DNA of 64,000 bases from Anaerolineae bacterium UTCFX2 (GTDB taxonomy: Bacteria > Chloroflexota > Anaerolineae > Anaerolineales > UBA4823), in assembly GCA_002050125.1 (NCBI GenBank), contig MWTA01000032.1, positions 1-64,000 on the forward strand. The letters run 5' to 3'. The notes beneath the pieces were generated by a model. The model ran no database searches, was not told where the DNA came from, and was given only the letters and a program-made list of their open reading frames with translations. Positions 43,422 to 48,848 of this stretch are shown here, piece by piece. Positions within the stretch are counted from its first letter, which is position 1. Each line of letters begins with the position of its first letter. The position numbers and the translations under genes are program-made.

Positions 43422-44864
43422 ATGCCTAAAACACGCACTCAATATGTTTGCCAGCAATGCGGGCGCGCCAGCGCGCGCCAGATGGGGCGCTGCCCACAAT
43501 GCGGCGCCTGGAACAGTATGCTGGAGGAAATCATTCCCGAGGTCGCCGGCGCCTCCGCCGCGCGCCACGCGCGCGGGCTTTCGGGGGGGCGCACGACCCC
43601 GCGGCGTCTGAGCGAGATCGGAGGGGATGTCGATGAGCGGCTGCCTCTCTCGATACACGAATTTGCGCGCGTGCTCGGCGGCGGCGTAGTTCCAGGTTCG
43701 ATTGTTCTGATCGGCGGCGATCCCGGGATTGGCAAATCCACGCTGCTGCTCCAGGTGGCGCTTGAAATGGCGCGGCGCACCCCTGTGTTGTACGTCTCGG
43801 GGGAGGAATCCGAACGGCAGATCAAGATGCGCGCTAAGCGCCTGCTGCGCCTGGCGCAGAACGGCGCTGACGCCGCTGCTGTAGAAGAAGCGTTTCCGCA
43901 AGACCTGTTCCTGGTCACCGAGACGAACCTGAGCCAGATCCTGGAGCACATCGCGGAGGTCAAGCCGCAGCTGCTGATCCTGGACTCGGTCCAGACCACT
44001 TATATACCGGAATTGGACAGCTCCGCCGGCTCGGTCACACAGGTGCGCGAGACCGCCGCGCGCTTGCGCGAACTGGCAAAGTCGAGCGGGATGGCGGTCT
44101 TCTTGATCGGTCATGTGACGAAGGAAGGCGCAATCGCGGGGCCGCGCGTGCTCGAGCACATCGTGGACACGGTGCTGTACCTCGAGGGGGACCGCTTCCA
44201 GTCTTACCGGCTGCTGCGCTCCACGAAGAATCGCTTTGGGGCGACCTCTGAAGTGGGGGTGTTCGAGATGCGCGAGCGCGGCTTGGTCGAGATCGTCAAC
44301 CCTTCCGAAGCGTTTCTGGCTGAGCGCATGGTGAACGCCCCCGGTTCGGCAATTGTGGTGACGATGGAAGGGACCCGGCCGCTGCTGGTCGAGATCCAGG
44401 GGCTGACCAGCCCCACCGCGTTTGGCAACCCGCGCCGCACGCCGAACGGGATCGATTTCAACCGGCTGCTGCTCACCGCTGCGGTTCTCACGCGCCGCTT
44501 GGGGATGCGCCTGGGCGAGCAGGACATTTTTGTCAACGTGGTTGGCGGGATTTCCATCAGCGAGCCGGCGGCTGACCTGGCGGTAGCGGCGGCAATTGCC
44601 TCCTCTTTGCGCGGCGTGCCGGTGCGCGCCGAGTCGGTGTTGATTGGCGAGGTGGGGCTTTCGGGCGAGCTGCGCCTGGTGGGTCAGATGCCCGCCCGGC
44701 TGCGTGAAGCGGCTAAGCTGGGTTTCAAGACCGCGATTGTCCCGCGGCGTTTGCGCCAGTTCGAACCCTGGCCCGAAGACATACAGGTGGTGGAGGCGCG
44801 CTCGCTGCGCCAGGCGCTCGAGGCGGCTTTGCTGCCGGGCTCGCCCGATGAAAAGGCGGAATAG
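43422..44864 (+). CDS. radA: DNA repair protein RadA
   Basis: 480 residues. N-terminal C4 zinc finger (Cys10, Cys13, Cys24, Cys27), RecA-like core with Walker A GGDPGIGKSTLLLQ (about 102-115), the RadA-specific KNRFG motif in STKNRFGATSEVGVFEM near 268, and a C-terminal Lon-protease-like domain (about 300-450). RadA is a helicase that promotes branch migration in recombination. Complete. It is followed at 26 bases by a dus gene in the same direction. Confidence 0.97.
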   Translation: MPKTRTQYVCQQCGRASARQMGRCPQCGAWNSMLEEIIPEVAGASAARHARGLSGGRTTPRRLSEIGGDVDERLPLSIHEFARVLGGGVVPGSIVLIGGDPGIGKSTLLLQVALEMARRTPVLYVSGEESERQIKMRAKRLLRLAQNGADAAAVEEAFPQDLFLVTETNLSQILEHIAEVKPQLLILDSVQTTYIPELDSSAGSVTQVRETAARLRELAKSSGMAVFLIGHVTKEGAIAGPRVLEHIVDTVLYLEGDRFQSYRLLRSTKNRFGATSEVGVFEMRERGLVEIVNPSEAFLAERMVNAPGSAIVVTMEGTRPLLVEIQGLTSPTAFGNPRRTPNGIDFNRLLLTAAVLTRRLGMRLGEQDIFVNVVGGISISEPAADLAVAAAIASSLRGVPVRAESVLIGEVGLSGELRLVGQMPARLREAAKLGFKTAIVPRRLRQFEPWPEDIQVVEARSLRQALEAALLPGSPDEKAE

Positions 44865-47582: not shown

Positions 47583-47861
47583 TTACGCCCCGCCGTTGAC
47601 GCCGATCCAGAGGTGGTTGGGGAGGACCGATTGGTTGGAACGCACTTCGATGCCGCCGGCGGTGAAGCGCTTCTCGTTATGCTTCTCGTTGGTGGGCGGC
47701 GCAGCGACTGCACCAGATTTGCCGTTGAGCATACTGGGATGGACGAAGCAGAGGGTGGGTCTGCTGCCGTATTTATCCCGATAGTACAGCGCGGCGCGCT
47801 CGATTTTGCTGTCCAGGTTGACTTTGGGGTCGTTATCGAACCAGAGCATGCCGATGTTCAT
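47583..47861 (-). CDS. Small protein of unknown function, partner of the FtsK-like ATPase
   Basis: 92 residues; the start overlaps the ATPase stop as ATGA. Opens MNIGMLWFDNDPKVNLDSKIERAALYYRDKYG and continues RPTLCFVHPSMLNGKSG, a compact alpha/beta start that reads like a conserved domain. The C-terminal half (KRFTAGGIEVRSNQSVLPNHLWIGV) looks like a short beta-rich end. I recognise no family. Coupling and shared SOS-like control tie it to the ATPase. Confidence 0.7.
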   Translation of the reverse strand: MNIGMLWFDNDPKVNLDSKIERAALYYRDKYGSRPTLCFVHPSMLNGKSGAVAAPPTNEKHNEKRFTAGGIEVRSNQSVLPNHLWIGVNGGA

Positions 47862-48784
47862 GTTTCATCTCCTTCCAGATTATTCGGGTCGAAATCTTCG
47901 TCCTGCGCTTGCGATTGCGAGGGGTTGAGGGCGCAGGTCCAGAAGCGCAGCCAGGCGCCGCCGTAAGGAACCAGAAATTGCTGGCCCTTTCGCAGGCGGC
48001 GCGTCGAAAGCCCATCGCTGCTGGCAAGCTGGCGCGCCAGGCGCTCGTCCTGCATGTGACCAAACAGGCGGGTGCGGAACGCGCTGAGGTAGCGTGGCTC
48101 GATCTGCGAGACCTGCCCAGCCGGCAGGGCAGCCAGCGTCCAAAGCTGGTAACGCGGACCGTGGCGGATCAGCCAGTAAAGGCTGCTAAAAGTGGGTTCG
48201 TCCAGGAACGGCAACAACGCTGCCAAATCGTCGATCACCAGCAGGAATGTTGGGTCCTGTGGACCGGTGCGCTTGCGCATTTCAGCGGTGCGCACCATCT
48301 CTTCGACCAGGCTGAGGATGCCGGGATGTTCAACCGGTAGCAAACGGCGGCAGTGGGATTGGTTTTCTAGCCCAGCGTATTCTTCGGGTTGGACGGCGAT
48401 CAGGTTGAAGACGACCTGCTGGGGTGAATTGATGTGAACCAGCGAGGTCAGCAGCGCTTGGAGCAGGGCGGTCTTTCCGCTGCCCGGGTCGCCAACGAGC
48501 AGCAGCGCCCCCGGCGCCGGATTGCTGAAATCCAGCAGGAAGGGTAAGCCGTCGTCGCAAACGCCGAGCAAGGCTGAGCTTTCGGGAATCTCAGCCAGAT
48601 TCAACCCGTCCAAAATTTGATCCAGTTTGGGTTGGACGCTCAGCGCCGGAACCGCAGCCGCCTCAGCCCCGTAAGCCACTAGGGGCGGGGGCTTGCGGCG
48701 CAGCCGCGGATATCCTCCGGCGGCTGGAAAAAAGCGATCGAGTGGTTTGAGGCGGCGAGCCAACGCCTCGTTCAGAGTAGACAT
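47858..48784 (-). CDS. FtsK/SpoIIIE-like P-loop ATPase of unknown function
   Basis: 308 residues with GGAGGAG just before the ATG. Residues 1-90 have no clear match. Residues about 92-290 form a RecA-like ATPase: Walker A LLLVGDPGSGKTALLQALL, Walker B TFLLVIDDLAALLPFL, and a later segment YLSAFRTRLFGHMQDERLARQLASSDG that resembles the sensor region of FtsK/TraB-type motors. No membrane helices and no DNA-binding gamma domain, so it is not a classical FtsK. It forms an operon with the 92-residue protein under a promoter with an SOS-like palindrome. Confidence 0.75.
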   Translation of the reverse strand: MSTLNEALARRLKPLDRFFPAAGGYPRLRRKPPPLVAYGAEAAAVPALSVQPKLDQILDGLNLAEIPESSALLGVCDDGLPFLLDFSNPAPGALLLVGDPGSGKTALLQALLTSLVHINSPQQVVFNLIAVQPEEYAGLENQSHCRRLLPVEHPGILSLVEEMVRTAEMRKRTGPQDPTFLLVIDDLAALLPFLDEPTFSSLYWLIRHGPRYQLWTLAALPAGQVSQIEPRYLSAFRTRLFGHMQDERLARQLASSDGLSTRRLRKGQQFLVPYGGAWLRFWTCALNPSQSQAQDEDFDPNNLEGDET

Positions 48785-48804
48785 AGCTCCTCCATTCTTG
48801 CTAT

Positions 48805-48822
48805 ATAGAACATATGTTCTAT
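48805..48822. promoter_or_regulatory. SOS-like operator palindrome
   Basis: An 18-base perfect palindrome with core GAACATATGTTC, matching the Gram-positive LexA/DinR design GAAC-N4-GTTC. It overlaps the end of the -10 element and the expected transcription start of the ATPase operon, the right place for a repressor. Confidence 0.65.
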
Positions 48823-48848
48823 TATAAACGGTTTTATGGAAGTGTCAA
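48821..48848 (-). promoter_or_regulatory. Near-consensus sigma-70 promoter of the ATPase operon
   Basis: On the minus strand TTGACA (48848-48843), a 16-base spacer and TATAAT (48826-48821). Both hexamers are perfect. Transcription should start near 48814 within the palindrome. Confidence 0.82.

Follow-up and report, generated by a model that had tools for sequence, protein, structure and literature searches.

A conserved small protein and a reduced FtsK-type ATPase form a predicted LexA-controlled operon in Chloroflexota

Results

The window, by which we mean the whole 64,000-nt stretch of DNA analysed here, belongs to a 2.92-Mb genome that is 83% complete, and its minus strand carries a two-gene operon behind a consensus promoter. 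The -35 hexamer TTGACA (48843..48848, minus strand) and the -10 hexamer TATAAT (48821..48826, minus strand) are separated by 16 nt, and this arrangement (minus strand, 48848-48821) was the sole 12/12 promoter among five promoter-like sites between positions 44000 and 54000 (shuffles: 3.1), confirming the perfect promoter claimed in a preliminary description of this DNA. The 18-bp palindrome that the description had placed over the start site, ATAGAACATATGTTCTAT, was likewise found, at 48805..48822, where it begins within the -10 hexamer and spans the likely transcription start site. With up to two mismatches allowed, the palindrome occurs once in the window (0.06 expected from shuffles), and its core, GAACATATGTTC (48808-48819), is present a single time in the genome.

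A GGAGG ribosome site, read from the sequence, precedes the start of P1 (308 aa; 47858..48784, minus strand), a single-domain ATPase of the FtsK/HerA family that lacks the alpha domain. P1 is followed by P2 (92 aa; 47583..47861, minus strand), a conserved basic protein with a pI of 9.2 whose start codon overlaps the P1 stop codon in the sequence ATGA. Given this overlap, the match of P1 to PF01580 and the failure of P2 to match Pfam, NCBIfam or PHROG, the earlier reading of the locus as an FtsK-like ATPase gene coupled to a 92-residue protein of no known family was correct. In the window the operon is flanked by holA and a GNAT acetyltransferase gene, and division genes are not among its neighbours. 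By reading, holA, an rRNA-methyltransferase-like gene and uppS are recurrent neighbours of the operon within the order, and they yield no functional story.

The preliminary description had recognised a LexA/DinR-type box, GAACN4GTTC, in the palindrome and had pointed to lexA and recA as places where the same motif should recur. We found one lexA gene in the genome (TIGR00498, 1.4e-46), with the promoter TTGACA-CAGAACGGATGTTCGTGT-TATTAT, in which an exact box, GAACGGATGTTC, lies within the spacer between the -35 and -10 hexamers. The recA promoter, TTGACAAATAGAACGCTTGTGCTAAACT, carries a one-mismatch box (GAAC-GCTT-GTGC) directly after TTGACA. The check proposed in the preliminary description, by which its reading would fall if the palindrome were missing at recA and lexA, did not refute that reading. 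Among relatives, 30 of the lexA loci were examined and 28 parsed, and an exact box was located near the start of the open reading frame (ORF) in 25 of these 28. In other Chloroflexota families, six of 16 lexA promoters had an exact box, three had a one-mismatch box and seven had no box. Across the genome, GAACN4GTTC is present 45 times, with many of the sites intragenic by reading, versus 21 times for a reversed control motif; the 8-base core alone is therefore weak evidence, and it is position and conservation that carry the case.

We ranked the boxes of the genome with a weight matrix made from the relatives' operon boxes, and the ranking favours the P1-P2 operon for that reason. The second-best box (L213, position ~1501; G000:C64:2657), with a further imperfect box nearby, sits between a transglycosylase SLT gene (PF01464, 2.9e-20) and the gene for an oppositely oriented 267-aa protein, for which an NCBIfam search gave no match. 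Another box (L240, position ~1501; G000:C107:14897) lies at the start of a gene that matches TIGR03916 (4.7e-84, below the cut-off), a family of putative DNA modification or repair radical SAM proteins, and this gene is plausibly a further SOS gene.

To measure conservation at the operon itself, we retained the best 80 of 251 P2 relatives from the genome collection and set aside three loci at contig ends (L109, L115 and L120). The box at the operon start was exact in 60 of the remaining 77 loci, had one mismatch in 12 and was missing from five, two of which are doubtful misses: the contig of L103 is cut inside P1, and the box of L079 is 605 bp away on the upstream side, with a 167-aa ORF in between. 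The reversed motif was found at the operon start in one of the 77 loci, and the background, calculated from box density in the rest of these loci, was 0.005 per 261-bp window. Exact boxes preceded 33 of 40 operons with P1 and 27 of 37 P2 genes standing alone, so the box follows the first gene, whichever that is. From this conservation and the exact box at lexA, which together uphold the LexA/DinR assignment, we conclude that the palindrome at 48805-48822 is very probably a LexA site.

The arrangement extends beyond the order. A phylum-wide set of 60 P2 loci, drawn almost entirely from beyond the order and including two doubtful hits (L261 and L296), contained 18 with an exact box in the 250 bp upstream and 13 with a one-mismatch box. 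By chance, a one-mismatch site is expected in about 10% of 250-bp windows (uniform bases), which makes the one-mismatch counts, here and in the 77 loci above, softer than the exact ones. An exact box within this distance was absent from 42 of the 60 genes, and the reversed motif was found upstream of none of the 60. Five more loci carry a promoter-like box of the form TTGACATAGAACNNNNGTTC at 297-414 bp. P2 was detected in 94 of 399 Chloroflexota genomes, versus a lexA match in 387 of 399, which indicates that P2 is not essential to the SOS response. With lexA this widespread, co-occurrence of P2 and lexA is uninformative, and we discarded it as evidence.

The P1 protein matched PF01580, the FtsK_SpoIIIE motor family, at 1.2e-9 (38.4 bits; cut-off 24), and PF17854, the FtsK alpha domain, was not among the best 25 of 30 families for the window copy (worst E 0.19). 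A predicted structure (pLDDT 88.3) aligned with the DNA-bound FtsK motor 6t8b (Z 25.6, 2.6 Å over 247 residues), EccCb1-D2 9jv8 (Z 25.5, 2.5 Å over 234), 4n1a (Z 24.4) and TcpA 6o1x (Z 23.2); the structure prediction proposed in the preliminary description thus returned a fold like that of the FtsK motor for P1. Two further FtsK/SpoIIIE genes in the genome score strongly (4.7e-60 and 1.4e-59), so P1 is not the housekeeping FtsK. We also considered a type VII secretion or conjugation ATPase and rejected it, as the fold is similar but the scores were far below the cut-offs and no such neighbours were seen by eye. An anti-phage system was rejected as well, since the PADLOC matches of P1 were all of a generic P-loop kind and P2 had none.

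The window copy of P1 has an intact Walker A motif (GDPGSGKT, residues 98-105; 48470..48493, minus strand) and keeps a Walker B-like LLVIDD. A P1 homologue lies directly upstream of P2 in 41 of the 80 loci, and 12 of these 41 sequences have lost Walker A, with GDPGSGKT replaced by GDEKAETS, SDQREYRQ and others. On the P1 tree this loss needs five changes, at least four of which are forced by well-supported branches, and the count was unaffected when the Walker A columns were omitted from the tree. The claimed two-protein module therefore stands in part: the pair is coupled here, but P2 is often alone behind the box and the ATPase signature can be lost. P1 is optional, and its motor is probably dispensable.

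Seven distant loci carry, ahead of P2 and in the place of P1, a gene for an FtsK-type protein of 386-509 aa, and in six of them an exact box stands close to the start of that gene; for L260, one of the seven, the box falls 310 bp into the nominal ORF, the actual start of which is uncertain. The alpha domain was present in all four of these chromosomal partners that were scanned, and such an alpha-domain protein would be the older form, shortened in the order to which the window belongs. In two loci (L242 and L245), an ORF of 205-255 aa lies between the FtsK-type gene and P2; its product has hydrophobic stretches near the N terminus and a long tail that is probably disordered, and it is perhaps a membrane anchor.

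These features bear on the possibility that the operon encodes an SOS-induced DNA pump, in which a ring of FtsK-like P1 would move or strip DNA, clearing trapped or damaged DNA in the way that SOS-induced FtsK may in E. coli, and P2 would act as a DNA-loading or specificity factor in place of the gamma and alpha domains. The Walker A and Walker B-like motifs of the window copy, its match to a DNA-bound motor, the alpha domain kept in distant partners, the basic character of P2 with basic tails in some distant members, and the SOS induction of E. coli ftsK, as given in the part of PMC4080785 available to us, all fit such a pump. However, Walker A is missing from 12 of 41 P1 homologues although gene and box stay, about half of the 80 P2 loci have no adjacent P1, and the window copy itself is without the alpha domain. 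We consider a DNA pump unlikely.

The consensus of P2 reads M-x-x-GMLWFDND-PK-x5-KI-x-RAA-x-YY-x2-KYG-x2-P-x-LCFVHPSM ... IEVR-x3-SVLPNHFWIGV. Within the signature GMLWFDND (residues 4-11; 47829..47852, minus strand), W7 and D9 do not vary among 45 sequences from across the phylum, and K19, A23, Y27 and G87 are nearly invariant. The median pI over 102 members is 8.8, and some distant members have lysine- and arginine-rich tails. Carriers of P2 include the cultured species Anaerolinea thermolimosa (L106) and Bellilinea caldifistulae (L099). P2 is the constant part of the system, with the box directly upstream even where the ATPase is missing.

Searches with P2 against Pfam, NCBIfam, PHROG and PADLOC at E up to 1 gave no match, those against PDB sequences gave no credible match, and a Pfam scan of 102 P2 relatives produced scattered weak matches only (best 0.015). 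The structure prediction suggested in the preliminary description gave an AlphaFold model for P2 (pLDDT 78.7) with a beta-alpha-beta-beta-beta-beta order but no convincing relative. We rejected a PD-(D/E)XK nuclease, since PF07788 matched in four of 102 members (best E 0.015) and the E of the putative E-x-R is lost, by eye, in distant members. The best PDB fold hit, to HK97-type capsid domains, had a Z of 5.7 (5.3 Å over 85), which is under the level that the tool treats as informative.

The best viral match for P2 was an uncharacterised 85-aa protein (E 0.0063), and P2 homologues were present on 23 IMG/VR contigs classed as viral (L160-L182), some of them beside ParA, ParB or FtsK-like ATPases. 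Such contigs would be expected if P2 and an FtsK-like ATPase were a domesticated module from conjugative or plasmid-like elements, now under SOS control and serving defence or exclusion. Against this origin, no box was found within 300 bp upstream of the IMG/VR copies in the DNA examined, none of 50,697 phage and 72,556 plasmid records yielded a P2 at E 0.01, and PADLOC offered a generic P-loop for P1 and nothing for P2. The chromosomal distribution of P2 and its box look ancestral, and we judge a mobile-element origin improbable.

Some distant P2 genes lie near mraZ or a minD-like gene. In 12 of the 60 distant loci mraZ and P2 are divergent and 174 bp to 3.2 kb apart, two of the 60 have minD-like genes by P2, and a thirteenth locus (L293) has rsmH and no mraZ match. 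In the Anaerolineales, a GAACN4GTTC box is placed over the start codon of mraZ itself (GAACnnATGTTC; L014 / G000:C42:9304-9315 and L321-L350). Of 31 mraZ genes in this set four were unparsed, and GAAC was at -6 in all 27 others, with 21 exact boxes and six reading ATGTTT. This conservation suggests LexA control of the division cluster. In the window's genome, a second RecA-family gene (PF00154, 7.9e-59; 331-aa open frame) is divergent from mraZ (L019, 1480 onward; G000:C42:9793-10512).

Discussion

Binding of the palindrome by some other regulator, with a fortuitous likeness to a LexA box, would accord with the 45 genomic sites, many of them intragenic by reading, and with the seven of 16 distant lexA promoters that have no box, but it is very improbable given that 25 of 28 parsed relatives have this same core at lexA, that recA nearly has it, and that it stands before a radical SAM gene of DNA-repair type.

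We infer that the P1-P2 operon is repressed by LexA and induced by DNA damage. LexA, bound over the start site of the consensus promoter, would keep P1 and P2 shut; DNA damage would lead to RecA-driven self-cleavage of LexA, and the promoter would open. The conserved product is P2, which is small, basic and of alpha/beta type and belongs to an unnamed family. P1 is an FtsK-type ATPase pared down to the motor domain, its output matched to that of P2 through translational coupling. Since many genomes keep only P2 behind the box, and Walker A has been lost repeatedly in P1, the effector is probably P2, with P1, a DNA-translocase descendant, as its probable docking or regulatory partner. The likeliest task would be a checkpoint at the division septum or the chromosome terminus that delays division or chromosome closure until DNA is repaired.

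We hold this explanation as a whole, a LexA-repressed SOS operon with P2 as effector and a checkpoint on division or the chromosome as its task, with moderate confidence, and the checkpoint function of P2, taken separately, is a tentative assignment. The link to division or the chromosome is the weakest step of the explanation; it is drawn from the FtsK ancestry of P1, the mraZ and minD genes by P2 in other lineages and the box over the mraZ start codon, and our sequence and fold searches gave no match tying P2 to division or DNA.

Several known systems resemble parts of this one. The GAAC-N4-GTTC motif was described for B. subtilis and extended to Gram-positives, according to the part of PMC3323433 available to us, and the operon shares with the Gram-positive LexA/DinR regulon the box core, the palindrome, the promoter overlap and the box at lexA. 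It differs in belonging to Chloroflexota and in that P1 and P2 are not in the SOS lists examined. A LexA study in Dehalococcoides reportedly also found a box of Gram-positive type. E. coli ftsK (dinH) is presented in the accessible portions of PMC4080785 and PMC11002266 as an SOS-induced DNA translocase under LexA. P1 shares the FtsK-family motor fold and predicted LexA control; unlike E. coli FtsK, it is a motor domain only, in a genome with two other FtsK/SpoIIIE genes, and its family can lose Walker A. We know of no counterpart of P2 in the E. coli ftsK system.

The fold of P1 is shared with the ATPase domains of EccC/EssC (9jv8, 4n1a) and TcpA (6o1x), whereas its TIGR03925 score was 26.5 against a cut-off of 346.55 bits, and reading the window by eye from 40 to 56 kb revealed no recognisable secretion or transfer genes. 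With SulA, YneA and other SOS inhibitors of division, P2 has in common that it is a small protein predicted to be LexA-controlled and that a division link is proposed for it; it differs in matching no Pfam family. YneA is a membrane-anchored protein, whereas a membrane-anchor segment is not evident by eye in P2. For mraZ, the excerpt of PMC3998124 available to us states that the LexA site at a gut metagenome homologue was bound by B. subtilis LexA in vitro. This gut Firmicutes case likewise has a LexA-type box at mraZ, but the Anaerolineales box, a predicted LexA site, lies over the start codon.

The recurrence of box and P2 in distant relatives points to an undescribed part of the Chloroflexota DNA-damage response. 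Among open-licence papers on Chloroflexota LexA or SOS, surveyed by title and the start of the abstract, we found none describing a P1-P2 operon. SOS regulons beyond the well-studied phyla are largely unread, and an FtsK-derived protein in which Walker A has disappeared several times offers a clean case of a motor protein becoming something else. Carried to its full extent, the argument would make P2 the founder of a new SOS effector family, the phylum's damage checkpoint on division or chromosome closure, partnered first with an FtsK-type translocase induced by the SOS response, later with a shrunken derivative that repeatedly became ATP-dead and served as a scaffold, and finally acting alone, with LexA control of mraZ as a second arm; we put this forward as a possible but speculative history. 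With its LexA box kept across classes, with or without the ATPase, the P2 family is a candidate for the damage-response effector that has been missing in the Chloroflexota.
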